From NCBI GenBank assembly GCA_003641745.1, contig QNAI01000002.1, positions 1 to 64,000 of the forward strand: a stretch of DNA of 64,000 nt, in the 5' to 3' direction. The notes under the pieces are model-generated. The model was not told the origin of the DNA. It searched no databases and saw only the letters and a program-made list of their open reading frames with translations. The position numbers were made by a program, and so were the translations under genes. The DNA is from Verrucomicrobiota bacterium. Its GTDB lineage: Bacteria; Verrucomicrobiota; Verrucomicrobiia; Opitutales; Opitutaceae. Of the stretch, positions 1-44,709 are shown piece by piece (the stretch's first letter is position 1; every line of letters starts with the position of its first letter).

Positions 1-374
1 CATTCACTTTCCAATGAATAGCCGTAGAGGATGGTGACGACATCCTGGTAGCCTCGGGCCGATGCTTCCATGGCAAGGCCGGTGAGTTCCCCGTCCCCAT
101 CGTAACCGGCGAAGACGTTGGCATTCGCGAAATCCTCGTCGGACAGCAGTGCCAGGCCCGATTCATCGAGCAGATAATTGGACTTCACGGTTGCTTCAGG
201 CAGTACGGCGAAAATGGCTTTTTCGAGCGCCATCTGCTGGTTGTAGGTGATCCTGGGGAGGGTCAACTGGTAGGTCAGTACCACGAGCAAACCGGACATC
301 ATGGCGATGCCGCCGAGGACCAGGATCAGGCTGCGGCTGCTGGGCAGAACTGGAGCTGGAGTTTCTTCGGTCAT
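1..374 (-). CDS. rnfG: RnfG, electron transport complex subunit G (3' end outside window)
   Basis: The frame opens with ATG at 374 and is still open at base 1, so only about 124 N-terminal residues are visible. They give a short polar N-terminus (MTEETPAPVLPSSRS), one transmembrane helix (about residues 15-37) and the start of a periplasmic domain with the sequence LPRITYNQQMALEKAIFAVLP, cut here to its sense: the region where RnfG proteins leave the membrane. RnfG is the membrane-anchored subunit that carries a covalent FMN on a threonine; that SGAT-type site lies beyond the window edge. The start codon overlaps the stop codon of rnfD by four bases (ATGA), so the two are translationally coupled. 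The assignment rests on topology, sequence character and position after rnfC and rnfD. Confidence 0.88.
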   Translation of the reverse strand, partial: MTEETPAPVLPSSRSLILVLGGIAMMSGLLVVLTYQLTLPRITYNQQMALEKAIFAVLPEATVKSNYLLDESGLALLSDEDFANANVFAGYDGDGELTGLAMEASARGYQDVVTILYGYSLESE

Positions 375-1438
375 CCGGCAGCTTTCGGTTTTTTGGCTCC
401 GTAAATGCGGGGCTGGGTCACGGCGCTGATCAGAGGCGAGCAGGCGTTGGCCAACAGGATGGCGTACATCACGCCCTCGTTGAGGCCTCCGAAGAGGCGG
501 ATAATGACGGTCACGAATCCGATCATCCCACCGTAGATCCAGACCCCACGCGGGGTAACCGGTGAGGCCACCATGTCTGTGGCCATGAATACGGCGCCCA
601 GCATCAGACCGCCGGTGGTGAGGGTGAACAGCGGATCAGGATAGGCCTGCGGATCGATCAGGTAGAACAGGCCCGAGGTAAGAAAGGCGACCAGGAGAAC
701 ACTGAAGGTGATCTGCCAGTTCATCATCCGGCGCGCCACCAGGTAGAGTCCGCAAAGCAGGATCAGCAGGGCTGAGGTCTCGCCGGCCGATCCGGCGGTG
801 GTCCCGAGCAACAATTGAACGGAATCCGTGCTGATCTGCTCGAATTTCATGAGGGCCAGCGGGGTGGCGCCCGAGAATCCGTCGGGGGCGACCTGGGTCA
901 GCCAGTCGCCGATCGGGGTCGGTTTGAGAAAGGGCGGAGTCAGCGTTGACGGAATGAACTGGGTGAAACGGCCTGGACTCATATAGGGCACCCAGGTGGT
1001 GATCGGAACGGTAAAGGCGGCCTGGGCGAATGCGCGGCCGACCAGGGCGGGGTTCATCACGTTGTAGCCCAGTCCACCGAAGAACATTTTGCCCAGTGCG
1101 ATACCCGCGAAGCCCGCCACAGCCGCCATCCAGAGCGGAAACCCGGGTGGCAGGGTCAGTCCCAGGAGCAGACCGGTGATGGTCGCGCTCCAGTCATTGA
1201 TGGATGAGGTCTCCCTCTTGGAGAGGCGGCAGACGAGGTGTTCAGTCAGCACGCAGGCACCGGTGGCAACAATGAGGAGGGCGAGCACACTGATCCCGAA
1301 CTGGTAGACCGAAAAAACGCATACCGGCAGCAGGGCGTAGACCACGTTGCGCATGATGACGTTCACCGGCGGACTCACCCGCAGGTGGGGCGAGGTCCGC
1401 AGCTGGACATTGGGCGCGTGATGCGGGGGTTGGTTCAT
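371..1438 (-). CDS. rnfD: RnfD, electron transport complex membrane subunit D
   Basis: This 355-residue polytopic membrane protein belongs to the NqrB/RnfD family, a core ion-translocating subunit of the Rnf complex (ferredoxin:NAD+ oxidoreductase). The sequence shows many hydrophobic helices from about residue 27 on, the family signature GLGYNVMNPALVGRAF, and the flavinylation motif SGATPL at about residues 188-193, whose threonine should carry FMN. The reading frame extends 32 codons upstream, but the ATG at 1438 (MNQPPHH) is chosen because it overlaps the rnfC stop by ATGA and matches the usual family length. ApbE encoded at the head of this cluster is the expected flavin transferase. Order rnfC-rnfD-rnfG is the classical one. 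Confidence 0.95.
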   Translation of the reverse strand: MNQPPHHAPNVQLRTSPHLRVSPPVNVIMRNVVYALLPVCVFSVYQFGISVLALLIVATGACVLTEHLVCRLSKRETSSINDWSATITGLLLGLTLPPGFPLWMAAVAGFAGIALGKMFFGGLGYNVMNPALVGRAFAQAAFTVPITTWVPYMSPGRFTQFIPSTLTPPFLKPTPIGDWLTQVAPDGFSGATPLALMKFEQISTDSVQLLLGTTAGSAGETSALLILLCGLYLVARRMMNWQITFSVLLVAFLTSGLFYLIDPQAYPDPLFTLTTGGLMLGAVFMATDMVASPVTPRGVWIYGGMIGFVTVIIRLFGGLNEGVMYAILLANACSPLISAVTQPRIYGAKKPKAAG

Positions 1439-2802
1439 GACGCCTTGGCTTTCTCCCGATTGCTGGACTTGGCGATGCGGAAATATTGAACGAGAGGGAT
1501 ACTCGAGGGGCAGACGTAGCTGCAGCAGCCGCATTCAAAGCAGTCCATGAGATGGAAGGACTCCGCCATCTCCTCGTAGCGGTGCTTGTAGGCCATCTTG
1601 CCCAGTTGGGCCGGATTGAGATGCATCGGGCAGGAATCCACGCATTGGCCGCAGCTGATGCACGGGTAGGCGTGATCGGAGATCCTGCCATGGGTGTCCT
1701 GTTCGGTCAGCACCAGGACGCCGCCGGCGCCCTTTGTAATGGGAACATCGAGCGAGGAGACCGTGCCGCCCATCATCGGACCGCCCATGATCAGGTGTTG
1801 GGCGGAGCCTTTGAATCCGAGCTGATCGAGGATGAAACGAAGAGGGGTGCCGAGAGCGACCAGGTAATTGCCGGGTCTGTCGACGCCGGGCCCGGTGACG
1901 GTGACCACGCGTTCAATCACACCCTGACTCATGGGAAGGAGGGCTCCGATTTCGGCGGTCGATGAGACGTTGAAGACACCCAACCCAACCGATGAAGGGA
2001 ATCCGCCGGAAGGGATCTCGAGATTCGTCAGGGCTTTGGCCAGCATCTTCTCCGCGCCCTGGGGGTATTTGGTTTTGACCGCCTTGACTTCGATGGAACC
2101 GTCGGCCGGTAGTTTGGCTCGGATGGCTTCAACCGCGTCGAGTTTATTATCCTCGGTGCCGATGATCGCTTTATTGGCGCCCAGTGCGCGCATGAAAATC
2201 TGCGTACCTCTGATCAGGTCCTCGGTGTATTCGAGCATCACCCGGTGATCCGTGGTCAGAAACGGTTCGCATTCGCAGCCATTGATCAGGACCGTGTGCA
2301 CGGTGTGTTCCTTGGGCGGTGTCAGCTTCACGTGGGTGGGGAAGGCGGCTCCCCCGAGTCCGACCAGTCCGGAGTCCTGAACCGCCTGAACGATTTCCCT
2401 GGGCGACATGGTGTCCACATCCCGCGGCTGAAAATAGCGGACCTCCTGGCTGTCACCTGGATAGACTTCGAGAATAATCGATGGGGTTTTCGGGCCCTTG
2501 GTTGTGGGCATCAATTCGATCCCCTTGATCTTCCCGGTCGCTGGAGCGTGCAGGGGAACGGATACGAACCCACCCGCCTTGGCGATGGGTTCGCCGCGGA
2601 CCACTTCCTGGCCGGGATGCACGAGCGGCACGGATGGAGCGCCCGTGTGCTGCGAGAGGGGCAGGATCATCTCCGGCGAAAACGGGAGACGTCGGATCGG
2701 CTTGTTCGCGGTGAAGTGCTTGTTCTCCTCGGGGTGAATCCCGTGGGAGAACGAACTGCGAACCCAGTGGGCTGGATCGAATAGGCTGCTCAGTCCACTC
2801 AT
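1435..2802 (-). CDS. rnfC: RnfC, electron transport complex iron-sulfur subunit C
   Basis: RnfC is the cytoplasmic-face subunit that binds NAD(H) and FMN and passes electrons through two [4Fe-4S] clusters. The 455-residue protein has the N-terminal barrel-sandwich region (HPGQEVVRGEPIAKAGG), the Rossmann-like NADH/FMN region with GLGGAAFPTHVKL at about residue 147, and the SLBB-type region (VTGPGVDRPGNYLVALGTP). Two ferredoxin motifs follow: CISCGQCVDSCP near residue 381 and CFECGCCSYVCP near residue 420. The first 30 residues contain the family start HWVRSSFSHGIHPEENK. It is separated from the preceding nifJ by about 200 bp holding two hairpin repeats, and is coupled to rnfD by an ATGA overlap. 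Confidence 0.96.
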   Translation of the reverse strand: MSGLSSLFDPAHWVRSSFSHGIHPEENKHFTANKPIRRLPFSPEMILPLSQHTGAPSVPLVHPGQEVVRGEPIAKAGGFVSVPLHAPATGKIKGIELMPTTKGPKTPSIILEVYPGDSQEVRYFQPRDVDTMSPREIVQAVQDSGLVGLGGAAFPTHVKLTPPKEHTVHTVLINGCECEPFLTTDHRVMLEYTEDLIRGTQIFMRALGANKAIIGTEDNKLDAVEAIRAKLPADGSIEVKAVKTKYPQGAEKMLAKALTNLEIPSGGFPSSVGLGVFNVSSTAEIGALLPMSQGVIERVVTVTGPGVDRPGNYLVALGTPLRFILDQLGFKGSAQHLIMGGPMMGGTVSSLDVPITKGAGGVLVLTEQDTHGRISDHAYPCISCGQCVDSCPMHLNPAQLGKMAYKHRYEEMAESFHLMDCFECGCCSYVCPSSIPLVQYFRIAKSSNREKAKAS

Positions 2803-2816
2803 ATCAGAAACGCTGC

Positions 2817-2869
2817 GGGGTCATTGCTTGCAATCGAGCATGACAATGCACGATTTAAGCTTTGACCCC
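2817..2869 (+). repeat. 53-bp hairpin repeat, family A copy 1
   Basis: The element begins GGGGTCATT and ends TTTGACCCC. Inside, AATCG pairs with CGATT and GCAT with ATGC, so it folds into one long hairpin. It sits between nifJ and rnfC inside the operon. Strand denotes the orientation with GGGGTCATT first. Confidence 0.85.
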
Positions 2870-2900
2870 TTCGTGGGGTACTGGCGACAGGACGGAATAC

Positions 2901-2953
2901 GGGGTCATTCCGAAAAATCATGCATGTTAATGCGTGATTTTCGGTTTGACCCC
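2901..2953 (+). repeat. 53-bp hairpin repeat, family A copy 2
   Basis: Same length and outer arms as copy 1, but the middle stem is different and still paired: CCGAAAAATCA against TGATTTTCGG, closing on TGCAT and AATGC. It lies 31 bp from copy 1 in the nifJ-rnfC spacer. Confidence 0.85.
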
Positions 2954-3001
2954 TTCGAACCGCAGTACGGAGGGAGACGATCCTCTGTCCGGTTACCTGC
3001 A

Positions 3002-6000
3002 TTACTGAAACTTCTCGGCCCGCTTGATCAGCTTTTCCACGCCCTTTTCGTTTGGATCCACAGGGGTGCCGGGATGGATGCACCGTCCGGTGCATTTTTC
3101 AGCGGCCCGGACGATGTCCTTGAAGGGGCCGCCCCTGGGGTCCTTGACGAAGGCCTTTTTGTTTTCGTCGTATTCGAAGATCTTCGGGTTGATATTGGTG
3201 CACTCGTCGCAGGTGGTGCATTCGGACTGGTCGATCCAAGCGGGTTCGTACCCCCCGGCGGCGGATGCTTCGGAGGCGTTGCCATTGCCGTCGGTCGCAG
3301 CGGTTGACAGGTCGAGCAGAGCTGCGCCGCCGGAACCGCCACCAGTGAGCATCGACATGAGGCCGCTGGCCAGTTTCTGGGCCGTTTCGCTTCGCACCTG
3401 CCGGGCGATCTGTTCCGGATCCACCTTGTTGAGCAGTCCGGCCAGTCCCTTGAGGGTTTTCCAGTAGGCCTGCCGCTCCTCGGTCGAGCGGACGATCTCT
3501 TCCGCCACCAGCACGCGGATCAGGTTATTCTTCCTGTCCACGGCCCAGATGTAGGGGAAGAGACCCTCGCGGTCCTCATCCTCCATCTGGATGAATTCGT
3601 GGAGAGTGGTCATGTTCTCGTTCCAGGTATCCTGGGGGGCCACCCTGAAGTGCTTCCGGAACCGTCCTTCCCCTACCGCGAAGTCCGCGAAGGTCATGGG
3701 CAGTTCCATGGTCTGGGTGTTCCCGTCGTCATCGAGGTATTCCAGCTTGTAGATCGGCCAGTCCTCGTCGATGGCCGGGTTGCCCTCGAGGTCGAAGCAC
3801 TCTTCCCAGGATTCGCCGGCGTCGGGGTCGAAGCGGATGACCGGATAGGCCCTCGACTCGAGTGCCATCTTGCTGCGTTGTGCCGTGCTGTTGTCGGGAA
3901 CGCCATGCTCCGGCTGGCAGACCGAGTAGATACTGAAGAGGGCCGGGCGGCGGGCATTCAGTCCGTCGATAAAGCCTTCGATCAGATGGGTGGTGTTGGC
4001 GATATTGCCCTGAAGGATGAAGGAGGTCCGGTGGGCCGCTGCGATCAGGGCCATTTCTTTGCGGATCTCGGTCTTGCCCTTCCAGACTTTGCCGTAAGGC
4101 GCCATATCCGAAATCTGGCCGACAAAGCCCGAGGTGCAGGCCTGGCCGCCGGTGTTGGAGTAGACCTGGGTGTCGAGCACGAAGACCTTGATCGGTCGAC
4201 CCGTCATCAGGGCGCGGGAAACGTTCTGGAAGCCGATGTCAAACATGGCTCCGTCGCCGCCGACCGCCACCACCGGCGGACAGAGCAGGTACTCTTCGTC
4301 GGTGAAGGTCTTCCAGTCGAAATAGACCAACGACTCCTCAACCGCCTTGTAGTCCTGTCCACCTTCCAACTCGGATTCAGCCAACCGGATCGCCTTGAAT
4401 CCGTCGGCCATCATGCGCATGTGGCCCTCGAAGAGGCCCAGGGAGACCGATGCGGCATCCTGGAAGAGATGACTCGACCAGGGGAACGGATATGGGTTGT
4501 AGGGGAAACTGCCTCCGTAGATCGAGGAACAACCGGTCGCATTCGCGAAACCGAGATTTGCGCGTCCATGCTTGGTCGGTCCGGTCTCGTAGCGCCATTT
4601 CAAATCCTTGAGCTGGGCGAGCAGATTACTCACCCAGGTCAGCCAGTCCTGATCCAATGGCGTTCCTGCCTTGCCCTCGTCGAGGGCTTCGGCGAGTTGG
4701 GAGAACTTCAGGTCTTCCTCCTGGTGAGTCGCAACGGCTTTCTGGATACCGGCGATGTCTGATATATCCACCGTGTCGGCCAGCCTGCTTTTGACGTGCT
4801 GCTCGAGTTTCCCGATCAACTCGTCGATCTTCTGAATCTGGCCTCTCACCCGGCGCTGCATCAGAGCGGTGATCGTGCTGGTGAAGAGATGCAGGACCGA
4901 TTTCTCACCGCAACCGGTGCAGGCACCGTCGCCGCAGGACATCGACGAATAGACCGACTTGTCCATCAACATGGTCTCGAGCGCACCGATCTTTTCGTCG
5001 ATGTCGTCGATCCGTATGAAGTCGGGAGAGGTGGTCGGCAGATCGAGCCAGTAATCCCACTCGGAGCGGAGGTTCCTGACTGTCTCCGGGGTCTGGTCGG
5101 CGATGGTCAGAGCCTCGTCTTCGCAGACATCGACGCAAAGCATGCAGCCCTTGCAGGTGTAAGGGTTGATGGTGATGGCGTAGAGCCCGCCCGTGCCGGC
5201 CTGTCTCTTTTCCCTCTGATCATAGTAGGGTTTTGTCAGGGCGAATTTGAATTCGCCCATGGAGTCGAGGAACCATTCGAATTCCTGCTTGAGGGCCTCG
5301 CCGTCACCATTCGCCTCGGCGATGGTCTGGTCTATGGAGGCGTGCAGGATCGGGGTCACGTCGATGCTGGCGGTGTCGCCGTTGGCCGTGGCGGCTGTGG
5401 CCCGCATTTTCTTTTCGACCGTGCGAACCGCTCGCGGCAGGAGGTTTACCTCATGGCCGGCCGTGCGGACCCGCTTGATGGTGGTCTCAAAGGCGTCGGA
5501 TATGGAGCAGGCCAGTCCGGGAATCGCGCTGTCCGGGCAGACCGTGAAACACTTGCTGCAGGCGGTGCACTTCTCGGGATCCCAGACCGGATGATTGAAC
5601 CGGATCTGGGTCATGTCCCGATAGACGCCGGTATTGGCCGGGATCAGAGCCAGTGAACTGAACGGATCGGCCAATTGGTCGTTGGGCTGCCCACCGAGAT
5701 AGAAGCTGCCGGTCTGTTCCCAGAAACGGTGGATGTCGGTTTTGGGATCCTCGCTGGCCTCAATGCGCTTCAACAGCGGCGGAAGGTTGGTTTCTTTCTT
5801 CAGGTTGTCCGTGCCGCCCGAGGTGATTTCAGGCATATCATCGATCGTCTTGAGCTCATCGAATCCGCGGCGAACCACCCGCATATTGTCCTCGACCACA
5901 CGGGCGCCCTTGCTGCCGAACTTATAGGTGATCTGGTCGCGAATTGCCTTGAAGAGCGATTCCTCGGTCAGTCCGGCTGAAGACATCAGGGTGGAGCCGG

Positions 6001-7933
6001 CAAAGAAAGCGCCCTGGAAGGCGATGCCCTGCATGCGGAACTGAAGTTCGGGGTCGGTGGCCTCGTCCCGGGCGATCTGGAAGGCGTCCAGGAAACAGAC
6101 TTTGATTTCCTTTTCGACGATGTATTTCCGGGAATGAGCCGGGAATGAATTCCAGACCTCTTCCGCCGTCGCCAGGTCGCTCTGAATGATGAAAGTGCCG
6201 CCCTTCTTGAGGCCGAACAGCGGATTCGAGTGACTGAAAACGTTCGGGTCGGGTGAGAGGACCGCATCCACGAAATTGTACTCGCAGTTGATCCGGATCG
6301 GTTCCGGCGCGGCCGAGAGATAATAGGTGGTGGGCTGACCCTTCTTTTCGGAACCGTACTTCGGGTTGGCCTTGATGTCGTAGCCGAGCAGTTCGTTGAG
6401 CGTGATGGCGAGATTCTTGCCGGTTGTAATGGCGCCCCATCCTCCGACCGAGTGCATGCGGACGGTGATGGCTCCCTCGGGAAGAAGATTTGGGTTTTCA
6501 CTGCCCTTGAGCCCAAGATCCTTGATCGACGGGTAGTTATCCACCAACTTCTGCTGGTAGATCTCGCTCTTGGGGGAACTCGGCCCTTTGCTCAGGAAGT
6601 CGATTGAGAGGTAGAAGAACTTCTTTTTCGGTCCGTCCGGGAGCATGTTTTCGATCGTGCCCACAATGCCTTCGGGCTGCAGGTCGCGGCTGCCCAATCC
6701 GAAGCAACCTGAGTAGAGCGGAGGGGTGTCTCCGGTGTTCTTGAAGCTGGCATAACTGGGGTAGGGAAGGCTGTCGCCCTTGGCGATCAGGCCATTTTCC
6801 ACGCATTTGCTGATGGTGGCCCGGATCTCGCGGATCAGCGGAAGGTCCTCGGCCAGGGGCTGGTCAGTTCGTTCCGGTACGACCACGCCCTTGCGGCCCT
6901 TGATGATATGCCCGAGCAGGTCACCGGGGAAAGGTCGATACATGGTCATATTGACCACGCCGATCTTGATCCCCCGGGTCTCCCGGAGGTAGTCAGCCAC
7001 TGCTTCGGCCGTGCCGATGATGCTCCCCTGGCCAATGACCAGGTAGTCGGCGTCGTCGCATTTGAAGGTCGAGACGCGGGCATAGGGCCGCCCGGTCAGG
7101 TCGGTGAATTCGACCATGCACTGTTCGGCGATCTCGGCAATATGCTCAAAGAAGTAGGGCCGCTGGGCCGCCACCGACTGCATATAGGATTCCTGGTTCT
7201 GCGCGGCACCGGAGAGGACCGGGTTGTCGACATCCCAGAGGATGGGGATACGGCGTCGCTTCTCGCCGTAGAGCATCTTCTGGGCGGGTGTTGGCGTGTC
7301 GATTATATCATCCGGACGGCCCAGGTATTCTTCGATCAGGGCGCGTTCGGGCAGCAGAAGGGTTTCGATCAGGTGAGTGGTCAGGAATCCATCCTGGCCG
7401 ACAGCTCCGGGCGTGAGCGAAAGCTCCGCGATTTTCCGGGAGATGATATTCAGATCGGCGGCTTCCTGGGCGCTCTTGCCGAGCACCTGGAAGAAACCGG
7501 TGTCGTCTATCAAGTGGTAATCATCGTGCCCGGCATGCACGTTCAGGGTGGTCTTGGAGATCGCCCGGCAGCCGATGTTGAGGATGTAGGGAAGTCGCTT
7601 GCCCACTGCGGTATAGAGGGACTCGTGCATATAGGCGATGCCCTGCCCGGAGGAGAAATTCGATGCGCGCAGACCGCTCATGGCCATCCCGGCGGTGACG
7701 CCGGCCGCGGCGTGTTCGCCCTCGGGTTCGATGAAGATCAGGGGCCGACCCGAAATGTTGATATGGCCCTTGGCGGTTTCCTCGGCCCAGTACTCCCCCA
7801 TCTGTGTCGAGGGAGTGATGGGATACGCACCTGCCGCGTCGGTGGATTCCCGCTCGCACATGATGACGGCGGTGTTGCCATCCATGGCAACAGGGATCCC
7901 TGGATACTTCGCTTTCTTGTTTTGAGAAACCAT
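3002..7933 (-). CDS. nifJ: Extended pyruvate:ferredoxin (flavodoxin) oxidoreductase
   Basis: This 1643-residue protein should oxidise pyruvate with CoA to acetyl-CoA and CO2 and reduce ferredoxin, using thiamine diphosphate and iron-sulfur clusters in the cytoplasm. Visible domains in order: the N-terminal domain with AYPITPSTQMGEYWAEE (about 36-52), the pyruvate-binding and gamma domains (to about 770), a two-cluster ferredoxin domain (CTACSKCFTVCP near 790; CKGCMLCVDVC near 927), the TDP domain (CGDGACTGCG near 999; ATGCSSIYGG; GDGAMFDIGFQN near 1226), and a C-terminal extension with another ferredoxin-like motif CTTCDEC near 1571 and CTGRC further on. Usual NifJ is about 1170-1200 residues. 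Extra length comes from about 80 residues between the two clusters, about 100 helical residues before ATGCSS, and the C-terminal ferredoxin. It lies inside the rnf cluster, 50 bp after rnfB. Confidence 0.94.
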   Translation of the reverse strand: MVSQNKKAKYPGIPVAMDGNTAVIMCERESTDAAGAYPITPSTQMGEYWAEETAKGHINISGRPLIFIEPEGEHAAAGVTAGMAMSGLRASNFSSGQGIAYMHESLYTAVGKRLPYILNIGCRAISKTTLNVHAGHDDYHLIDDTGFFQVLGKSAQEAADLNIISRKIAELSLTPGAVGQDGFLTTHLIETLLLPERALIEEYLGRPDDIIDTPTPAQKMLYGEKRRRIPILWDVDNPVLSGAAQNQESYMQSVAAQRPYFFEHIAEIAEQCMVEFTDLTGRPYARVSTFKCDDADYLVIGQGSIIGTAEAVADYLRETRGIKIGVVNMTMYRPFPGDLLGHIIKGRKGVVVPERTDQPLAEDLPLIREIRATISKCVENGLIAKGDSLPYPSYASFKNTGDTPPLYSGCFGLGSRDLQPEGIVGTIENMLPDGPKKKFFYLSIDFLSKGPSSPKSEIYQQKLVDNYPSIKDLGLKGSENPNLLPEGAITVRMHSVGGWGAITTGKNLAITLNELLGYDIKANPKYGSEKKGQPTTYYLSAAPEPIRINCEYNFVDAVLSPDPNVFSHSNPLFGLKKGGTFIIQSDLATAEEVWNSFPAHSRKYIVEKEIKVCFLDAFQIARDEATDPELQFRMQGIAFQGAFFAGSTLMSSAGLTEESLFKAIRDQITYKFGSKGARVVEDNMRVVRRGFDELKTIDDMPEITSGGTDNLKKETNLPPLLKRIEASEDPKTDIHRFWEQTGSFYLGGQPNDQLADPFSSLALIPANTGVYRDMTQIRFNHPVWDPEKCTACSKCFTVCPDSAIPGLACSISDAFETTIKRVRTAGHEVNLLPRAVRTVEKKMRATAATANGDTASIDVTPILHASIDQTIAEANGDGEALKQEFEWFLDSMGEFKFALTKPYYDQREKRQAGTGGLYAITINPYTCKGCMLCVDVCEDEALTIADQTPETVRNLRSEWDYWLDLPTTSPDFIRIDDIDEKIGALETMLMDKSVYSSMSCGDGACTGCGEKSVLHLFTSTITALMQRRVRGQIQKIDELIGKLEQHVKSRLADTVDISDIAGIQKAVATHQEEDLKFSQLAEALDEGKAGTPLDQDWLTWVSNLLAQLKDLKWRYETGPTKHGRANLGFANATGCSSIYGGSFPYNPYPFPWSSHLFQDAASVSLGLFEGHMRMMADGFKAIRLAESELEGGQDYKAVEESLVYFDWKTFTDEEYLLCPPVVAVGGDGAMFDIGFQNVSRALMTGRPIKVFVLDTQVYSNTGGQACTSGFVGQISDMAPYGKVWKGKTEIRKEMALIAAAHRTSFILQGNIANTTHLIEGFIDGLNARRPALFSIYSVCQPEHGVPDNSTAQRSKMALESRAYPVIRFDPDAGESWEECFDLEGNPAIDEDWPIYKLEYLDDDGNTQTMELPMTFADFAVGEGRFRKHFRVAPQDTWNENMTTLHEFIQMEDEDREGLFPYIWAVDRKNNLIRVLVAEEIVRSTEERQAYWKTLKGLAGLLNKVDPEQIARQVRSETAQKLASGLMSMLTGGGSGGAALLDLSTAATDGNGNASEASAAGGYEPAWIDQSECTTCDECTNINPKIFEYDENKKAFVKDPRGGPFKDIVRAAEKCTGRCIHPGTPVDPNEKGVEKLIKRAEKFQ

Positions 7934-7983
7934 GGTCTTGTCGGTTGAATCTTCTATTTTCTAAAAAGGGGCGGAGGGTTGAG

Positions 7984-8871
7984 TTACCGGTCCGGTTGAA
8001 TGGGAAGGGGTTCCTTGCGGATGATCTTCCTGGCCGCGGCGCCTTTGGTCGCCTTCTGTTTTTCGAGCCAGACGATGGCGCCGGTCGGGCAGCGCTGAAT
8101 GGGAAGGGGGGTGGCCAGTCGGTTCTTGGAATAGTCCACGACGGCCAGGTTGTTCTTGATTTCGATCAGACCGGCGGGGGCGTCGGCCGCGCAACGGGCA
8201 CAACCGGTGCAGGCAACCTCGCAGTCTTCCAGGGCCTCGTCGCCTTCCGCCAGGCTTTTGCAGGCCACCCAGAGTTTGTGGCTGACCGGTTGCAGCGAAA
8301 AGAGATCGAGCGGACAAACCTCAACGCAGTCGTTGCAGGCCACGCACTTGTCTTCGTCCACCACCGGTAGACCATGGTGGTCCATGGTGATGGCGTCGAA
8401 GTCGCAGGACACTTCGCAATCGGCCAACCCCAGGCAACCCCAGGTGCAGGCTTTGCCTCCTCCGCCGGCCGCGACAGCCGCCTGGCAGGTTTCCAGACCG
8501 CTGTAATGAGCCCTCATGCGAGCGACGTGACTGCCGCCGGCGCAGGCCAGCCGGGCAACGCGCTTCTCCTCATTGCCCAATTCGACCCCCAGGTATCCGG
8601 CGATGAACTGGGTCATCTCCTTCGAACTGACGGTGCATTGGGCCGGATTGGCTTTGCCGCCGACACAGGCCTCGGCGAAGGCCCGGCAGCCCGGACTGCC
8701 ACAGGCGCCACAATTGGTGTTGGGCAACATCTCCTCGACTTCGTCGATTCGCGGGTCCTCGGCGACATACAGCTTGCGGTTGGCGACCGCAAGGATTGCT
8801 GCGAGCAAGAGCCCGAGCGCTCCCATGAACAGGAGCGTGCCGCCGATCGACGATGTCAGTGCCTCAATCAA
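7984..8871 (-). CDS. rnfB: RnfB, electron transport complex ferredoxin-type subunit B
   Basis: RnfB is the entry subunit that takes electrons from reduced ferredoxin. The 295-residue protein has one N-terminal membrane anchor (about 8-29), then the Fe-S domain with CGACGSPGCRAFAEAC (about 54-69) and the following cysteine of AQCTVSS, then a run of further cysteine motifs (CTWGCLGLADC, CVACNDCVEVCP, CTGCARCAADAP) that would bind several [4Fe-4S] clusters. Its position directly before the pyruvate:ferredoxin oxidoreductase suggests that the two are made together and coupled through ferredoxin. The last motif lacks the standard final CP, having ADAP instead, so one cluster may be altered. Confidence 0.95.
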   Translation of the reverse strand: MIEALTSSIGGTLLFMGALGLLLAAILAVANRKLYVAEDPRIDEVEEMLPNTNCGACGSPGCRAFAEACVGGKANPAQCTVSSKEMTQFIAGYLGVELGNEEKRVARLACAGGSHVARMRAHYSGLETCQAAVAAGGGGKACTWGCLGLADCEVSCDFDAITMDHHGLPVVDEDKCVACNDCVEVCPLDLFSLQPVSHKLWVACKSLAEGDEALEDCEVACTGCARCAADAPAGLIEIKNNLAVVDYSKNRLATPLPIQRCPTGAIVWLEKQKATKGAAARKIIRKEPLPIQPDR

Positions 8872-8896
8872 GGTGTGACCTCACATTCCGGATCGT

Positions 8897-9943
8897 TCAA
8901 CTGGAGAACGGGAATCCGGTCGTTCGCTCGATCCGACCCTGCTTCGTGACAAACAGGGCGTCGGCGCCTGGGATGGACTTCACTAGTTCCATGCCATCCT
9001 CGAGGCCGGCGATGAAGACCGCCGTCGACAGGGCATCTGCCTGCATGGCGGTCGTGGCTGCGATTGAGACGCTCGAGAGCTCTGCCGGTGAACTTCCGGT
9101 CCTGGGGTCGAGCAGGTGATGTTGTTTGAAATCTTCGCTGAAGAACGTTTCGTAATCCCCCGAGGTCGCCAGGCAGCGTCCATTCAGCCGGGTGGTTCCA
9201 AGAAACGCTTCGGCCTCGCGGGGGTCCTTGATCCCGATCGACCAATCGCGCTTCTGCGCATGTACTCCGAGAGTGCCGATCTCTCCGGTGTCGATCAATG
9301 CGCTCGTGATGCCGTGGGTGACCAGAACGCGCCGAACCGCGTCGGCCGCGAATCCCTGGGCGATACCATTGAGCGTGATCCCGGTGCCGTCGCCACGTAG
9401 TTCGATCTTCCGGTCTGAAAGGGTGATGCGGCGCCAGTCGACATTCCGGAGGGCCTGCGCGAGGGCGGCCTCATCCGGTTCCTGTCCGAGCATGGCGCTG
9501 TGGTGACGAAGCGTCCAGAGGGGCTGAACGGTCACGTCGAAGGCCCCCCGGCTCCTTTCAGAGAGATCGTTTGCGGTTCTAAGCACCTCTACCAGGTAGG
9601 GATGCGGATCTGCCAGGCGGCCGGTTGCATTGAGTTGGCTGAGCTGGCTGTCAGGGCGGTAGAGGCTCATCAGCTGCTCGACGATTTCAAGCTCATCAAA
9701 GGCGGAGGCGATCGCCTTCTCAGCGAGTTCCTGATCGTGGTGGTAGACGGTGAGGGCGACCTGAGTGCCCAGAGCATGCGTTGAGCGGGAGACCTTGACC
9801 CACCTCCCGGCTGCCAGCGCACCCGTAAGGTTGCCGCCAGGCACAGTTGCGGTCCCGGCCTGTTTGAGCAGACCCAGCTTCCAGGCGGTCAGACCGGCCG
9901 CGGCTGTGCCGACCAGGCTGAAGATGAACTTTCGACGTTTCAT
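8897..9943 (-). CDS. apbE: ApbE, FAD:protein FMN transferase
   Basis: ApbE moves the FMN moiety of FAD onto threonine in RnfG and RnfD. The protein shows the family landmarks: MSLYRPDSQLSQLN, the GAFDVTVQPLWTL segment, GITLNGIAQGFAADAVRRVL (substrate region), SALIDTGEIGTLG (family DxGG-like motif, here DTGEIG), and a C-terminal HHLLDPRTGSSP plus ATTAMQADALSTAVFIAG. The start at 9943 gives MKRRKFIFSLVGTAAAG, a twin-arginine-like signal for the extracytoplasmic location where this enzyme works; a longer frame from GTG at 10003 would add 20 residues. It precedes rnfB by 25 bp and is the first gene of the cluster. Confidence 0.95.
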   Translation of the reverse strand: MKRRKFIFSLVGTAAAGLTAWKLGLLKQAGTATVPGGNLTGALAAGRWVKVSRSTHALGTQVALTVYHHDQELAEKAIASAFDELEIVEQLMSLYRPDSQLSQLNATGRLADPHPYLVEVLRTANDLSERSRGAFDVTVQPLWTLRHHSAMLGQEPDEAALAQALRNVDWRRITLSDRKIELRGDGTGITLNGIAQGFAADAVRRVLVTHGITSALIDTGEIGTLGVHAQKRDWSIGIKDPREAEAFLGTTRLNGRCLATSGDYETFFSEDFKQHHLLDPRTGSSPAELSSVSIAATTAMQADALSTAVFIAGLEDGMELVKSIPGADALFVTKQGRIERTTGFPFSS

Positions 9944-10045
9944 CAGGCCTTGACCAATGCCCCCGGGAAACTTGGGTGCTGAAGGAGTTTTTGTCGTGCT
10001 CACGTCTGGAATTAGAAATTAGAGTTACTTATGATGTAGAGGGAA

Positions 10046-11337: not shown

Positions 11338-14300
11338 ATGACCATTGATTCAGGTCTTTTCCGACCCTTTCAAAACCCGTCTTTCAGATGGGTTTTTCTT
11401 TTCTTACTTGTTACAGGGTCAGGCCTCCTGGCCGGACCGATTGTCAGCAACGTCACCCTGGAGCTTCGCCAGGGGACTCAACTGATGGATATCACCTACG
11501 ATCTGGCGCACTCCGATGGCTTGACCTGCACCGTGACTGTAGAGGCCACGACCGATGCTGAGAAATGGGTCCTGCTGCGGGAAGTCACAGGGGAGGGAAG
11601 TGTAGGCGAAGGAGTGACGGTTGGTACCGGAAAAAGCATTCTCTGGGATATCGGCTCAGAGTGGGAAAATCAGTTGTTGCCGAACCTGAAGGTGAGGATC
11701 CGGGCCGACGATGGTCAGGGGAGTGCCTTCGTGCAGATCTCCCGAATTTCGCCAGGCGATCAGGCCGAAATGGTCAACGTGGCTCGCGAGACCATAATTT
11801 TCTTTGATGACCCGGTGGATCCTTCCACTGTGACATTTGACAGTTTCAATCTGACTGCAAACGGGGAGAGCCTGGCCGGTCGCATCGTGGTTTCCTCGAC
11901 CGAAAGGTTCGCGACCTTCTTTTACGACGAGCCGCTTCCTTCATCCACCGAGGTCAGGGTTGTTGTCGATGGAGACAAGATCATCGGACGCAACGGTATT
12001 AAGATCGATGCAGATGGGGACGGAATCGAAGGAGGCGTCGCAACCGCAGATTTCCGAACCCTGCCGCTGACCCGCATTGCCGGAACCAATGTTTTTGGAA
12101 ATGTCTACGACTCCCTCAGCCTCCTTCCCATCGTCGGAGCGACGATTCGGGTCGACGCATTTGCCGAGGCCAATGCGGTGACTGACGCCGACGGACGGTT
12201 TGAACTGAAGGATATGCCCGCTCCGGAATTCTTCGTTCATGTGGACGGATCCACCGCGACCAATGCGCCCTCAGGATTTGTCTATCCGAACGTGGGAAAG
12301 CCTTTTCACAGTGTTCCCGGTCAGAGTGTGCATCTCAATCACCACGGCCATGATTTCGACATCTTTCTTCCGCCCATGGCGATTGCGGACATCCAAAGTC
12401 TTTCTTCGAGTGCGGACACCGAGGTTGGATTTGGTGATGCCGGAAAGAGCACACTCGCAACTCTTTTCCCCGAAGTGGATCCAGCGGTGTGGGATCGCAT
12501 GAGCGTGACTTTCCCAGCGGGGTCTGCTCAGGACGACCTGGGCAATGCCGCCGTCACTGCGGCCGTTATCCCGGTGCCCAAGGATCGCCTGCCGGCGCCC
12601 CTGCCCGCGACATTGGATCCTGCGTTCGTAATTTCGATCCAGGCTCCGGGTGCAACCAACTTCGATGTTCCGGCACCGGTGACTTTTCCCAATACCGACG
12701 GTCTTCTTCCGGGAGAGAAAACCCTCATTTGGTCCTTCAATCACGATGCGGGCGAGTGGCAAGTGATCGGCACGGCGACGGTCAGTGCCGATGGCCTGGT
12801 GGTGGTTTCGGACCCGGGTGTCGGTATTCTCGCCCCGGGCTGGCATTTCCCGTGGCCAGGTTCTCAAGGCAGTGGCGGGGGTGGTGTCGATGGCCCTGAT
12901 GATGCCGAAGACGAAAGATGCGAGACATTGCGGAAGCTGGCGATGAGCAAGGGGACGCAGTGTAGCGTGGCCTTGGGAACGTCTGCCATCGACTTTGCGA
13001 ATCCTGTCGTAGGCTGTCTGGTGGGCCTTGCTGAAGGCGCTGTGGGGTTTGCCGCAGACAGCGCGATTGATCCGGAAGGACAGTTTACCCTCGCAAACGC
13101 CGCGATGACATCCTTCGTAAGCGGTATCGGTTGCATACCGTGGGTTGGGTCACTTTTGTCAACCGGGATTGGTTGTATACAGGCGGCTGATGCGATGCAG
13201 GATTTCGAGTCATGTCGTGGGACGGCAGGCAGTCAAAATGCGCTGGAAATACATGAGGCGAGCGCGACCTATAGCAGTCCATATTCACAGGCAACGGCGA
13301 AGGCGGATGCAATCATCGGAGTAAGCGGATCCATTGATCTGATGAAAAAACAGGTTGAGATCGTTGAAGCTATAGGGGCCATGTACGCCGCGATCATGGG
13401 GAGTGATGTATGGGTGGGAGCAGAGCCTGAAGAGGTTGCAACCCTGTACATGATCATTGGAGCTTTTGAAGACGCGACCGCACCGCTCAGCGATGCCGGG
13501 GGGGTGATCACTGACACCGAAAAAGGTACCATTAACGCGTTGCGAGTACCCTCTCATTTTGGAGACAACGATATCAAAGATGCCATCGATCGACTCAACT
13601 CTTGGACGAGTGGTGTTTCGACTCCGGAGGCGTTCGGGTTTCCGGAGATCGGTGTGGCCGCTCAGAGATTACAGGATCTTCTTGGTGTGCTCGCATCGGA
13701 AGGTTGGCAGGGCATGAATCATGGGGCCCTCGAGGCGTCGATTGCTTTGGGCGAACTCCAGGATGAAGCCGTTGAATCCAATGGCTCGGTTGTGGTTCGG
13801 GAGTCTCTCCAATTCAATATCACCGATTTGGATACCGGGTTCAGCGTTCGCGGAGAAACGGCAACTCACGGGCAATTCGATGACTTTGTATTCGCTTTGA
13901 ATCGACCCTATTCGATTACCTATCTCGATCCACTGACCCTCCAGACAGGAGTCACGGTATTCCGATCCACTGTCGCTACCGGACGGTTTGAAATCCCCAA
14001 GGCCTTCCTTCTCAGGAGTGATGAAGACACAGATGGGGATGGACTGTCGGACGAAGCCGAGCTCGTTATTGGAACGAGCATCACCAAGCCGGACACCGAC
14101 GAAGACGGTATCAACGATTTCACCGAGTTCACTACCGATGGAATGAATCCCCTGGACAATAGAGGTTTCCCGACCGGAATCATCGCCCGCACCCCGTTGG
14201 TTGGCCAAACCAACGAAGTCGTTGTCGGGACCGTTCCCGGACTAGGTTTGACTGCTTTTCTCGCGACCGGCTCTCACGGTCTCGCGATCGTGGATGTGGA

Positions 14301-17300
14301 TGAATTCAGTAATCCGATTGTGCTGGGGCAATTGGACCTCGAGGGCGACTGCACCGATGTCGCTTACGATGACATTCTGGATCTGGCAGTCGTTTCAGGC
14401 AATTCAGGTGGGGTGCACCTGGTGGATGTTTCGGATCCCATGCTCCCCGGATTGGTGCAGACGATCGAGGTCGATTCAGCTCAGGTGGAAATCGCAAATG
14501 GAATTGCCTACCTTGCCAGCGGTGGTTTCCTCTACAGCTTTGATCTGTTCAACCCGGAAAGGTCTCGGAGTGTATCGATTTCATCGGGAGCAATCGCCGG
14601 GCTGACTCGTCAGGGCGATATGCTATACGCCATGGATGGCCTGAATGAGTTGCACGCGATTCAGGTCGATGACATCCAGTTGAGCGTAATTGGCAGCGTG
14701 CAGCTCGACCAGGGAGGGGGAAGGGTATTCGTTGCGGACGGCATCGTTTACGCGGGCGCTCGTCCTTCTTTTGGACGAGGAGGTTACCTGACCATCGATG
14801 TTTCGGACCCGGTCAATATGGCCCTGATTTCAGGTTCATCAGTAGAGTCTCCCAATATAGACGCTGGGCGCTACCTGGTGGAAAATGGCTCGGGAACGGG
14901 GCTCTTGATTGGGCAGAACGTCCTGGATCTGATGAAGACAAGTGATCCGGGCGATACCGGGAATTTCCTCAATCGAATCAACCTGCCGGCTGCGCCTGAG
15001 AGTGTGACCATCGGTTCCGGGATTGCGTTCGTCGCTGATGGGGCAGCCGGGTTACTGACCGTAAACTATATCGGATTCGATACAGGCGGAATTGCTCCGA
15101 CTGCGTTCATGGATCTGGGGTCGCTGGACATCAATTCGGGGAAATCCGGTATCCAGGTTCTGGAGGGAAGCACTGTTTCGATCCCGGTGGGAGTGACCGA
15201 TGACGTTCAGGTTCGCAATGTCGAGTTGCTGCTCGATGGAGAGGTTGTTGCTTCAGATGTTTCGTTTCCCTGGGAATTGGATCTCTCGATTCCTGTGATT
15301 GAAGCTGATGTTTCGGAGGTGACGGTCCAGGTTCGGGCTCTGGATACGGGAGGAAATGCGGGGCTGACCACCGAGTTTGTGCTCGAGCTCGTACCAGACA
15401 CGACCGCACCGATACCCACTTTCTCAGTTCCGGTCGGGGGTGATGAGTTTGGTCAGAACTTCAATACGCTTCAATTCGGGTTTTCCGAACCCATGGATAT
15501 AAACACACTTACCAGCGAAAATTTCCAACTCACCAATACCAGGAATCCCGGGTCTTCGATACCTCTGGATGTGATGATTCTGAGACCGCCGTATTCGACC
15601 GTTCTGTTAAGATATCCCACGCTGAAACCAGGGGACTATGAGATGACTCTCAAGGCGTCGTCGATCACGGATGCCGCGGGGAATCCGCTTGGCCTGACCG
15701 ATCAGGTCATCGCTTTCTCGATCAATAGTAATTATACCTTTTTGAACAACGAAGGGGGGAACTGGCATGATCCTGAGAATTGGAGCACGGGCGTGGTGCC
15801 GGGGCCCGGGGACAGGATATTTCTGGATCTGCCAAAAGATGCGGTGATCACTTTCGACTCGGGAGAGACGCAGATCGAAAGCCTGACCGGGGTCGCAATC
15901 ATCGAGCTGAAAGGTGGGCGCCTCGAGGTAAACGGCACAATTCAGTTGGACGGGCAACTGATCATGAGTGGCGGAACCCTTGCGAATGCCACGGTGCTTC
16001 CTCGAATACCGGGTCGAAACATCGGTGGTGATGTCGCTCTCGTCATCACGGCTACTGGTACGCTCGATGGTGTCACGATTGAGGGCGTTGCCGAAATTTC
16101 CACTCTAGGAACTACTGTTACAATCGAAAATGAAATTACGGTTATTGGTGAGATAAGTTTGCTTCGGGGAGTCTCTTTGTCATTTACCGGACCTGAGGCC
16201 CTTGTTTCTGGCACGGGAATGTTGAAGTTTACGGAGATCTCCTCCATTTATAATCCTAACAGTATCGGCCTGCCCAAGGTCGGGACCTTGACGATCGGAG
16301 CGGGAATTACGATAGAGGCTGGAAGCTTGAACATCTATGGCCATGGTGTTGATTCTCATCTGGTGAACAAAGGAACGATTCGTGCCAACGTTGCAGGCAG
16401 AACGGTGAACGTGGGCTCGTTTGGAAGTCTCCCCGATTCCGTTTTCGAAAACCAAGGGTCCTTGGAGGCGGTCAACGGTGGCATCCTTGATATACGGGTA
16501 CTGACGGGCGGATTGGGAAGCGCGTCTGTCAGCGGAGGGTCGAAGCTGATCGTGGATGGGACGGCCTATACGATTGATCAGGATCTGGTCGTCCAGGACA
16601 CCGGCAAGCTTACCCTGAATGGCGGATGGGACATGGTGGGGCAGGTGACGATCGAAGGCGAACTCAGCATCGGCGGGGATTATACTCTATCGCAATTGAA
16701 AAATGCCAACTGGTCGAATAGCGGCGGCACCCTGACCGTGTCCGGCATTCTGGATCTCCAGGGTGGCACACTGAGCGTCGATGACAACTTTGGACAATTG
16801 ACCATCGATATTGGAACGATCAAGAATGGGACAGTAGCGATCAGCGGTTCCGGAGGCCTGAATGCTTCGTCCAACGTGGGAAACCTTCTGGAGAACGTGA
16901 CCCTCGATGGTGATTTCGACATGGGATTTGGCAGGCTTAGTGTAAGCGGAGGATTAGGAATCAACGGAACGGTAACGATGGCAGCTATTTTGGTTTTTAT
17001 CGACGATTCCACGATCAGTGGAACAGGGACGATGACTTTTCATCCACCCCTCAATGCCCGTAATCCCTCAACAATGGAGATGAGTCGCGGAGGCATCCTC
17101 ACCATTGGAAGTGGTATTATAATCGAAGGAGAAGGCATTTTTCGCGGGTATTCCTACTCAGTGATGACTTTGGTGAATCAAGGGACCATTCGAGCCAGTG
17201 TTCCCGGGAAGAGGTTGACGATAGGTGCGAAATCCTCTCAGAGCGCGGCTTATGTATCCCTTGACAATCAGGGTACTATGGAGGCGGCAAACGGGGGTGT

Positions 17301-18798
17301 ACTCGAGGTTCAGGATTTGGCGGGTGGACTGGGAACTGCCAGCATACAAGGCGCCTCGCACCTTATCCTGGACGGAACCGCCTATGTAATAGATGCGGCG
17401 CTCACTGTTCCGGATTCCGGCATGCTTACGCTCAATGGAGGATGGGATATTCAAGTGCTGATCAACAATGCGGGTGTTCTCAATACGGGCGGTGAATTCA
17501 CGCTGCCCCAATTCTTGAAGTCGCTGAATGGGACGGGAACCGTGGTCGTGACGGGTATTCTGGATCTCGAAGCAGGTAGCTTGAATCTCAACGATGATAT
17601 TGGAGAGCTGGTTCTGGATGACGGAACGATCAGAAACGGAACGATTGCGATCAGTGGCTCCGGGACACTGAGCCCCACGGGGAGCATGAATATCCTGGAA
17701 GACATAGCTCTCGATGGATCCCTTACGGTAAGCGGTGTCAACCTCACCCTCTCGGGAGGTCTGACTCTGAATGGAACACTTACCCTGGAGAATAATGCGC
17801 GCCTGTTCTTGCTCACTGATGTGCCGATCGATGGTACCGGGTCTTTGCTGTTCACCAATACATCGATAAGTGGATCTTCCGGTAATCAGGCCTTACAGTT
17901 TACGATTGGCAGTGGTATTGCTTTGGATGGAAGCTCTCTCACCTTCGGTCAATTTGTGAGCCTGGTGAACCTGGGCACGATTCGTTCCACAGTATCTGGC
18001 GAATCGATCATATTCAGGGGCGATTACGGTGGAGTCTTCGAAAACCAGGGTTCCGTGCAGGTACTGGATGGTGCGATATTGGAAATTCAGAAACTGGCGG
18101 ACAGTGGGGTTGGGAATACCACGCTTGGAGCAGGATCGCAGCTCATCCTTGGCGGAGACCTTAAGCAGTCGATGCTGGGAAACGTCACCAATAATGGTGG
18201 GAATATGAAACTGCAGGGAGTACTGGATCTCGAAAGTGGAACCTTGAACCTCAATGATGCCTTTGGTGAGTTACTGTTGAAAGGTGGGACGATTAGGAAC
18301 GGAACGATAGCGATTAGCGGAACCGGAAATCTGAACACTCGTAGTAATGGAGGTATACTGGAAAACGTGATCCTTGAAGGAGAGATGCTAATGAACGAGA
18401 CTTTCGGATACCTGCTGATTCGAGATGACCTTACCTTAAACGGAACCATCAGACTGCAGGCACCAGGTGTCAGGCTTGGATTTTATGAAGATGAGACGAT
18501 TAATGGAACCGGAAAAATTGTATTTGAGACGACGGTTGGTGATCGAACTTCTCTTCAGATGGTAAATTTGGATGGGGAGTTAACCATCGGGACTGGTATA
18601 ACCCTGGAGGGGGGGCGCGTAACCTTTGGAGTCCGTTCTCCGTGGGCCGGGTGGGGGCGGGTTATGGACCTCGTAAATCTGGGAACAATCCGAGCCAATG
18701 TTGCGGGTCAAACCATCACTTTCGATCCTGACTTCGGCACATTTGATAACCAGGGAACCGTCGAAGAACTCAACGGCGGCGTCATCATCCTGCCGTAA
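11338..18798 (+). CDS. Giant secreted mosaic protein with beta-propeller and beta-helix repeats
   Basis: This 2486-residue protein begins with a signal peptide (hydrophobic FLFLLVTGSGLLAG, about 20-33). By eye the order is: a short beta domain (34-130), an Ig-like Big_5 type domain (about 138-240), a carboxypeptidase-regulatory-like domain with ADGRFELKDMPAP (about 243-330), a glycine linker near 510, a hydrophobic cysteine-containing segment (about 540-630), thrombospondin-3-like loops (DTDGDGLSDEAEL, about 895-940), LVIVD-type propeller repeats (VHLVDVSDP, about 965-1245), two Ig-like regions, and from about 1473 (GNWHDPENWSTGVVP) a long beta-helix. The helix contains four units marked by LVN-GTIRA near residues 1675, 1945, 2209 and 2445. 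No beta-barrel, LPXTG or PEP-CTERM anchor is seen at the end (GGVIILP). A surface adhesin or polymer-binding role is a guess from architecture. Confidence 0.85.
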   Translation: MTIDSGLFRPFQNPSFRWVFLFLLVTGSGLLAGPIVSNVTLELRQGTQLMDITYDLAHSDGLTCTVTVEATTDAEKWVLLREVTGEGSVGEGVTVGTGKSILWDIGSEWENQLLPNLKVRIRADDGQGSAFVQISRISPGDQAEMVNVARETIIFFDDPVDPSTVTFDSFNLTANGESLAGRIVVSSTERFATFFYDEPLPSSTEVRVVVDGDKIIGRNGIKIDADGDGIEGGVATADFRTLPLTRIAGTNVFGNVYDSLSLLPIVGATIRVDAFAEANAVTDADGRFELKDMPAPEFFVHVDGSTATNAPSGFVYPNVGKPFHSVPGQSVHLNHHGHDFDIFLPPMAIADIQSLSSSADTEVGFGDAGKSTLATLFPEVDPAVWDRMSVTFPAGSAQDDLGNAAVTAAVIPVPKDRLPAPLPATLDPAFVISIQAPGATNFDVPAPVTFPNTDGLLPGEKTLIWSFNHDAGEWQVIGTATVSADGLVVVSDPGVGILAPGWHFPWPGSQGSGGGGVDGPDDAEDERCETLRKLAMSKGTQCSVALGTSAIDFANPVVGCLVGLAEGAVGFAADSAIDPEGQFTLANAAMTSFVSGIGCIPWVGSLLSTGIGCIQAADAMQDFESCRGTAGSQNALEIHEASATYSSPYSQATAKADAIIGVSGSIDLMKKQVEIVEAIGAMYAAIMGSDVWVGAEPEEVATLYMIIGAFEDATAPLSDAGGVITDTEKGTINALRVPSHFGDNDIKDAIDRLNSWTSGVSTPEAFGFPEIGVAAQRLQDLLGVLASEGWQGMNHGALEASIALGELQDEAVESNGSVVVRESLQFNITDLDTGFSVRGETATHGQFDDFVFALNRPYSITYLDPLTLQTGVTVFRSTVATGRFEIPKAFLLRSDEDTDGDGLSDEAELVIGTSITKPDTDEDGINDFTEFTTDGMNPLDNRGFPTGIIARTPLVGQTNEVVVGTVPGLGLTAFLATGSHGLAIVDVDEFSNPIVLGQLDLEGDCTDVAYDDILDLAVVSGNSGGVHLVDVSDPMLPGLVQTIEVDSAQVEIANGIAYLASGGFLYSFDLFNPERSRSVSISSGAIAGLTRQGDMLYAMDGLNELHAIQVDDIQLSVIGSVQLDQGGGRVFVADGIVYAGARPSFGRGGYLTIDVSDPVNMALISGSSVESPNIDAGRYLVENGSGTGLLIGQNVLDLMKTSDPGDTGNFLNRINLPAAPESVTIGSGIAFVADGAAGLLTVNYIGFDTGGIAPTAFMDLGSLDINSGKSGIQVLEGSTVSIPVGVTDDVQVRNVELLLDGEVVASDVSFPWELDLSIPVIEADVSEVTVQVRALDTGGNAGLTTEFVLELVPDTTAPIPTFSVPVGGDEFGQNFNTLQFGFSEPMDINTLTSENFQLTNTRNPGSSIPLDVMILRPPYSTVLLRYPTLKPGDYEMTLKASSITDAAGNPLGLTDQVIAFSINSNYTFLNNEGGNWHDPENWSTGVVPGPGDRIFLDLPKDAVITFDSGETQIESLTGVAIIELKGGRLEVNGTIQLDGQLIMSGGTLANATVLPRIPGRNIGGDVALVITATGTLDGVTIEGVAEISTLGTTVTIENEITVIGEISLLRGVSLSFTGPEALVSGTGMLKFTEISSIYNPNSIGLPKVGTLTIGAGITIEAGSLNIYGHGVDSHLVNKGTIRANVAGRTVNVGSFGSLPDSVFENQGSLEAVNGGILDIRVLTGGLGSASVSGGSKLIVDGTAYTIDQDLVVQDTGKLTLNGGWDMVGQVTIEGELSIGGDYTLSQLKNANWSNSGGTLTVSGILDLQGGTLSVDDNFGQLTIDIGTIKNGTVAISGSGGLNASSNVGNLLENVTLDGDFDMGFGRLSVSGGLGINGTVTMAAILVFIDDSTISGTGTMTFHPPLNARNPSTMEMSRGGILTIGSGIIIEGEGIFRGYSYSVMTLVNQGTIRASVPGKRLTIGAKSSQSAAYVSLDNQGTMEAANGGVLEVQDLAGGLGTASIQGASHLILDGTAYVIDAALTVPDSGMLTLNGGWDIQVLINNAGVLNTGGEFTLPQFLKSLNGTGTVVVTGILDLEAGSLNLNDDIGELVLDDGTIRNGTIAISGSGTLSPTGSMNILEDIALDGSLTVSGVNLTLSGGLTLNGTLTLENNARLFLLTDVPIDGTGSLLFTNTSISGSSGNQALQFTIGSGIALDGSSLTFGQFVSLVNLGTIRSTVSGESIIFRGDYGGVFENQGSVQVLDGAILEIQKLADSGVGNTTLGAGSQLILGGDLKQSMLGNVTNNGGNMKLQGVLDLESGTLNLNDAFGELLLKGGTIRNGTIAISGTGNLNTRSNGGILENVILEGEMLMNETFGYLLIRDDLTLNGTIRLQAPGVRLGFYEDETINGTGKIVFETTVGDRTSLQMVNLDGELTIGTGITLEGGRVTFGVRSPWAGWGRVMDLVNLGTIRANVAGQTITFDPDFGTFDNQGTVEELNGGVIILP

Positions 18799-30061: not shown

Positions 30062-30114
30062 GGGGTCATTGCTCATTATCTTGCATGCCAATGCGAGATA
30101 TGTGCTTTGACCCC
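30062..30114 (+). repeat. 53-bp hairpin repeat, family A copy 3
   Basis: Outer arms GGGGTCA and TGACCCC with inner stem TATCT/AGATA and loop TGCATGCCAATGC. It is flanked by family C sequences on both sides. Confidence 0.88.
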
Positions 30115-44443: not shown

Positions 44444-44496
44444 GGGGTCAAAGCTCACATCTCACATTGGCATGCAAGATGTTGAGCTATGACCCC
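44444..44496 (-). repeat. 53-bp hairpin repeat, family A copy 4 (tandem unit 1)
   Basis: Outer arms GGGGTCA and TGACCCC, inner stem CATCT/AGATG. First of three copies arranged as tandem units of 106-107 bp. Confidence 0.9.
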
Positions 44497-44549: not shown

Positions 44550-44602
44550 GGGGTCAAAGCGCACATCTCGCATTGGCATGCAAGATGTTGAGCAATGACC
44601 CC
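44550..44602 (-). repeat. 53-bp hairpin repeat, family A copy 5 (tandem unit 2)
   Basis: Begins 106 bp after copy 4 and is almost identical to it, including the GTTCGG...TGAC spacer that follows. Confidence 0.9.
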
Positions 44603-44656: not shown

Positions 44657-44709
44657 GGGGTCAAAGCGCACATCTCGCATTGGCATGCAGGATGTTGAGC
44701 AATGACCCC
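44657..44709 (-). repeat. 53-bp hairpin repeat, family A copy 6 (tandem unit 3)
   Basis: Begins 107 bp after copy 5. The tandem block ends 75 bp before the binding protein gene. Confidence 0.9.

Follow-up and report, generated by a model that had tools for sequence, protein, structure and literature searches.

The gene cluster at the start of the 64,000-nucleotide stretch of Verrucomicrobiota DNA analysed here (the window) probably encodes, with a likelihood that we place at roughly 0.6, an Rnf-type ferredoxin:NAD+ ion pump equipped with a dedicated pyruvate oxidoreductase, in which a NifJ-derived protein would act as the subunit that wires catalysis to the pump. The initial annotation had read the order apbE-rnfB-nifJ-rnfC-rnfD-rnfG, and this was borne out by Pfam and NCBIfam assignments for all six genes:

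8897..10003 (likely ATG start near 9943), minus strand: apbE, FAD:protein FMN transferase (PF02424, 241 bits)
7984..8871, minus strand: rnfB, electron-entry Fe-S subunit of Rnf (TIGR01944, 90 bits against a cut-off of 68.7; PF04060)
3002..7933, minus strand: nifJ-like PFOR of 1643 aa with a fused C-terminal ferredoxin (POR_N, PFOR_II, POR, Fer4, TPP_enzyme_C, Fer4_13)
1435..2802, minus strand: rnfC, NADH-binding subunit (TIGR01945, 492 bits, above cut-off; PF01512, PF13375)
371..1438, minus strand: rnfD, membrane subunit with the FMN motif SGAT in GFSGATPL (TIGR01946, 287 bits, above cut-off)
<1..374, minus strand: rnfG, 5' part alone owing to the contig end, first 124 codons (TIGR01947, E=1.7e-8)

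The products of rnfB, rnfC and rnfD thus exceed the NCBIfam cut-offs and the partial RnfG is recognisable, while the ApbE product would put FMN onto RnfD and RnfG. The nifJ-like frame is open through all 1643 codons. Overlap of rnfC and rnfD occurs at ATGA, and the intergenic gaps measure 25, 50 and 199 bp, the last being that between nifJ and rnfC; judged by this spacing, co-transcription of the cluster is plausible, with the nifJ-rnfC gap holding two REP-like hairpins:

2817-2869, no strand: 53-nt REP-like palindrome
2901-2953, no strand: 53-nt REP-like palindrome

Both belong to a family of REP-like GGGGTCA...TGACCCC palindromes of 53-54 nt, seven copies of which are present in the window against 0.05 expected, the others being at 30062-30114, 44444-44496, 44550-44602, 44657-44709 and 50759-50812, so that three stand in tandem near 44.5 kb. 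Beyond the cluster, and transcribed away from it, lies a gene (11338-18798) whose 2486-aa product matches Big_5, Big_7 and TSP3 and has a long C-terminal region rich in repeats.

Base 1 of the window is base 1 of contig C2, and the cluster leaves the contig inside rnfG. Neither RnfE/RnfA (PF02508) nor an orthologue of the FNR-like gene found in relatives (see below) was detected in the host MAG (4.3 Mb, 307 contigs, 83% complete), which says little since the cluster runs off the contig in rnfG; in close relatives rnfE and rnfA follow directly after rnfG.

Concerning the nifJ-like protein, its membership of the PFOR fold is evident from the POR_N, PFOR_II, POR, ferredoxin and TPP domains, and its best PDB matches are the PFORs of Moorella and D. 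africanus. Its score against the NifJ equivalog TIGR02176, at 382.6 bits, falls below the cut-off of 911, and it is consequently considered a divergent, enlarged NifJ relative or subfamily. In common with the homodimeric PFOR/NifJ enzymes of D. africanus and M. thermoacetica it possesses domains I-VI, the catalytic residues and the 12 cluster Cys, but it differs from them in length (1643 versus approximately 1200 aa), in two inserts of 80-100 aa and in a tethered fourth [4Fe-4S] domain resembling D. africanus FdI. The regions concerned are:

5099..5590, minus strand: PFOR domain V with two [4Fe-4S] clusters (Cys 789, 792, 795, 799, 927, 930, 933, 937), kept in 71/71
4532..4909, minus strand: helical insert of approximately 100 extra residues in the TPP domain, between proximal-cluster Cys 1008 and 1135
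3239..3349, minus strand: variable Ala/Gly/Pro/Ser-rich linker, 29-50 residues in the family
3074..3235, minus strand: C-terminal single-[4Fe-4S] ferredoxin domain (Cys 1572, 1575, 1578, 1614; Fer4_13)

In D. africanus numbering, T31, E64, R114 and the residues that bind Mg/TPP are retained by all 71 full-length relatives, the window protein included, and so are the 12 Cys of the three core [4Fe-4S] clusters. One row based on a wrong ORF, L021can, was left out of the analysis. Approximately 80 extra residues part the two domain V clusters, and the helices of the approximately 100-residue insert are seen in the structure model; both inserts are shared by the rnf-linked NifJ and by stand-alone Opitutales paralogues (L003-L014; 1480-1660 aa, about 37% identical). 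These paralogues were considered as members of the same system and rejected, as they have no C-terminal ferredoxin and no rnf gene was seen near the four that were inspected.

Loss of the pyruvate-binding Arg114 was likewise considered, the xARQTGF motif reading IDDTGF in this protein, and was rejected on the basis of an alignment to 1b0p, in which Arg114 corresponds to the conserved R123. A 2-oxoacid other than pyruvate as the substrate of this enzyme would be in keeping with the failed TIGR02176 cut-off, with the replacement of the motif's Arg by Asp in 71/71 proteins and with the presence of a canonical NifJ as well in approximately 10 of 24 host genomes, but such a substrate is distinctly unlikely given that T31, E64, R114 and the Val at I123 are kept and that PFORs are the nearest solved structures. 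The canonical copies in those approximately 10 of the 24 host genomes tested also render doubtful, for the wider family, the earlier description of the clustered gene as encoding the main ferredoxin-reducing enzyme.

The C-terminal extension distinguishes the rnf-linked form from its relatives. Its four extra Cys are invariant in the 71 rnf-linked full-length proteins (71/71) and absent from the stand-alone paralogues and from canonical NifJ. In the structure model the domain superposes on D. africanus FdI (1fxr) with an rmsd of 0.7 A and a TMt of 0.86, and the linker preceding it is disordered (pLDDT 25-40, against 72 for the whole model); the C-terminal domain on its linker reads as a tethered ferredoxin.

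Among the best 80 of 556 relatives detected, rnfB immediately precedes the rnf-type NifJ gene in 57 of 61 testable loci, rnfC immediately follows it in 67 of 68, and the complete C-D-G-E-A series is present in 53/57. Of the 54 loci testable for apbE, four carry it upstream, all of them in Opitutales. The resulting block, rnfB-nifJ-rnfC-rnfD-rnfG-rnfE-rnfA, often has an FNR-like gene behind it and, with NifJ identities of 61-78%, occurs in Verrucomicrobiota, Kiritimatiellota, Gammaproteobacteria, Acidobacteriota (Bryobacterales), Hydrogenedentota, Calditrichota and SAR324; its Opitutales hosts include Pelagicoccus mobilis, and the window protein groups with Opitutales in the NifJ tree. Within a phylum sample of 337 genomes, RnfA scored above the cut-off in 128 and the rnf-type NifJ was present in 11 besides the host itself, the other Verrucomicrobiota Rnf clusters inspected being rnfABCDGE-like or differently ordered and devoid of NifJ. 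The arrangement had been described as unlike the usual rnfCDGEAB or rnfABCDGE; it is indeed unusual, yet a unique or recent arrangement was rejected, as the order recurs across phyla; it was published in 2014. In the Solemya velum symbiont, the rnf2 cluster carries PFOR genes between rnfB2 and rnfC2, and pyruvate is proposed as the Rnf donor in the relevant passages of that report (PMC4287430), so that both the gene order and the notion of pyruvate as the source of electrons for Rnf are already in print and not new here.

A rival reading is one of ordinary clustering, in which PFOR is co-expressed with Rnf and free ferredoxin carries the electrons, the fused domain only speeding hand-over to a soluble ferredoxin or the FNR-like enzyme. 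We regard this as rather unlikely. In its favour is the reading published for that symbiont (PMC4287430). It agrees with Candidatus Halobeggiatoa L058:9983-14884, a rnf-type NifJ with no rnf gene within its 8-10 kb flanks, which together with four loci that have no adjacent rnfB indicates that strict NifJ-Rnf co-dependence is not absolute. It also agrees with a plant-type FNR-like gene that closes the cluster in 38/57 loci of the best 80 of 556 relatives, for example at the ends of these clusters with NifJ (type 1):

L031:19681-20541: FNR-like gene
L044:19702-20562: FNR-like gene
L045:19543-20403: FNR-like gene, with others elsewhere

The encoded protein has the plant/cyanobacterial FNR fold (E=1e-49 to solved FNRs) but scores below the NCBIfam PetH cut-off, and in the aligned rows the NADP 2'-phosphate motif SR...K-x-Y is replaced by a SPRPxFDEP-like sequence, leaving its nucleotide uncertain; the fused ferredoxin could have this enzyme, instead of RnfB, as its partner. 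What a free ferredoxin leaves unexplained is that the extra ferredoxin is invariant in the rnf-linked form alone, and that catalytically dead NifJ descendants at the same site next to rnfB have retained exactly the electron-transfer clusters.

These descendants are encoded in a sister type of cluster with the overall order korA-korB-X-rnfB-Y-(sucCD)-rnfCDGEA. Following a search of 369 Gammaproteobacteria, korA-korB-X-rnfB-Y-rnfC, and onwards through rnfA where the stretch allows, was observed in nine fetched gammaproteobacterial genomes and in SAR324, with two further genomes identified by protein match alone. KorA exceeds the TIGR03710 cut-off in all three copies tested, and no copy of KorB has lost CxxC or GDGD. 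Y (1258-1599 aa) aligns along NifJ and has all eight domain-V Cys in 10/10 copies, but the proximal-cluster Cys in 0/10, and most of its TPP/pyruvate residues are lost. X (750-857 aa) corresponds to the C-terminal half of NifJ and has lost catalysis; the four Cys of the tethered ferredoxin are present in all of its full-length copies (9/9). Y groups with the rnf-linked NifJ and not with the paralogues (FastTree local support 0.897). Judged by these residues, X and Y are NifJ descendants devoid of catalysis in which ferredoxin-type clusters have been kept, and loss of catalysis with retention of the wiring is what a subunit role for the NifJ-derived protein predicts. Taken together with the conservation across phyla, these KorAB-scaffold clusters make a coupling of 2-oxoacid oxidation to Rnf well supported.

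Genes for succinyl-CoA ligase (sucCD) lie between Y and rnfC in L282, with same-size ORFs (by size alone) at this site in L281, L285 and L286, and their presence fits a 2-oxoglutarate product. As PFOR/OGOR and Rnf are reversible, the system might instead run backwards, the ion gradient and NADH driving electrons through Rnf onto the tethered ferredoxin, which would serve to make pyruvate from acetyl-CoA by reductive carboxylation or, in the KorAB type, 2-oxoglutarate from succinyl-CoA. For Rnf, reversibility is also reported in PMC12174285. Many of the hosts are autotrophic sulfur bacteria, as such a direction would favour, but sucCD suits both directions. The Acidobacteriota and Opitutales hosts, moreover, are mostly heterotrophs, and overall we deem reverse operation quite improbable.

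In a tree of RnfC+D+E+A the NifJ-linked Rnf (type 1) received a support of 1.0, the KorAB type (type 2) 0.996 and the two jointly 0.999, with a narrow outgroup of 16 Rnf clusters lacking NifJ, nearly all from Verrucomicrobiota; in an RnfA tree that included gammaproteobacterial Rnf the joint clade received 0.896 (all FastTree local supports). By these trees, the Rnf partner of the rnf-type NifJ forms its own clade. RnfB, C, D and G of the window and RnfE and A of its relatives are ordinary by HMM when compared with canonical Rnf (RnfABCDGE/CDGEAB/BCDGEA), from which the system differs in this separate clade and in having a PFOR gene inside the cluster, with rnfB on one side and rnfC on the other.

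According to the proposed pump with its own pyruvate oxidoreductase, pyruvate and CoA would be converted at the TPP site to acetyl-CoA and CO2, and the electrons would move along the three [4Fe-4S] clusters of the PFOR core, from proximal to medial to distal, and on to the linker-borne C-terminal ferredoxin, which would dock on RnfB. From RnfB they would travel through Rnf to NAD+ with the pumping of Na+ or H+, so that the oxidation of pyruvate would be linked directly to the pump, with no pool of free ferredoxin in between. In the type seen in the window a single polypeptide would provide both catalysis and wiring; in the clusters in which KorAB took over catalysis, the NifJ scaffold would have dropped its active site and proximal cluster and kept the clusters leading towards RnfB. 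Chances appear about even that the joint clade as a whole represents Rnf with an integral 2-oxoacid-oxidoreductase arm, namely, in one branch, an active PFOR whose ferredoxin swings, making up a direct pyruvate:NAD+ ion pump, and, in the sister branch, a PFOR that decayed to two dead wiring subunits plugging in KorAB for 2-oxoglutarate.

In the textbook view a soluble ferredoxin pool feeds Rnf. Were the wiring to be confirmed, the oxidation of pyruvate (or 2-oxoglutarate) would itself be the ion-pumping step, low-potential electrons would be shielded from oxygen and side reactions, and a metabolic enzyme would have become a respiratory-complex subunit, decaying to one entirely in one branch. 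The existence of cultured hosts, namely Pelagicoccus mobilis, Allochromatium, Thiocapsa, Thiothrix and Sedimenticola, makes this reading directly testable.

Relative to S. velum rnf2, the cluster described here extends the arrangement to Verrucomicrobiota and includes apbE, while the portions of that paper dealing with rnf2 (PMC4287430) describe no fused ferredoxin, conservation across phyla, FNR-like gene or KorAB-scaffold sister type. Beyond that paper, the full-text literature (subscription papers and bioRxiv lying outside its scope) yielded nothing that describes the KorAB-scaffold-Rnf cluster, the ferredoxin fusion or the conservation across phyla, nor did the literature searched describe a separate clade of the partner Rnf; similarly, no paper describing korAB-rnf-sucCD clusters was found in a search that lay outside the subscription literature. 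A further parallel is offered by the four-subunit KorABCD and Hdr-Flx clusters of tubeworm symbionts, in which 2-oxoacid oxidoreductase genes lie with those of electron-transfer complexes and a direct exchange of electrons between them is proposed (PMC6315080, PMC11636981); the partner there is Hdr-Flx, whereas here it would be Rnf, reached through NifJ-derived proteins. In the Riftia symbiont, korAB and a 'PFOR-like' gene are reported to be jointly down-regulated when sulfide is limiting, no link to Rnf being drawn in the section concerned (PMC11636981).

Two further observations concern other Rnf-like genes. L246, L247, L249, L251, L253, L254 and L255 carry Rnf/Nqr-like RnfD-E-A clusters with an FNR-domain match behind them, which may be NqrF; ApbE is present in some. 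The host MAG also contains a second RnfC-like gene (G000:C44:13238-14581), below the RnfC cut-off and possibly PduS-like.
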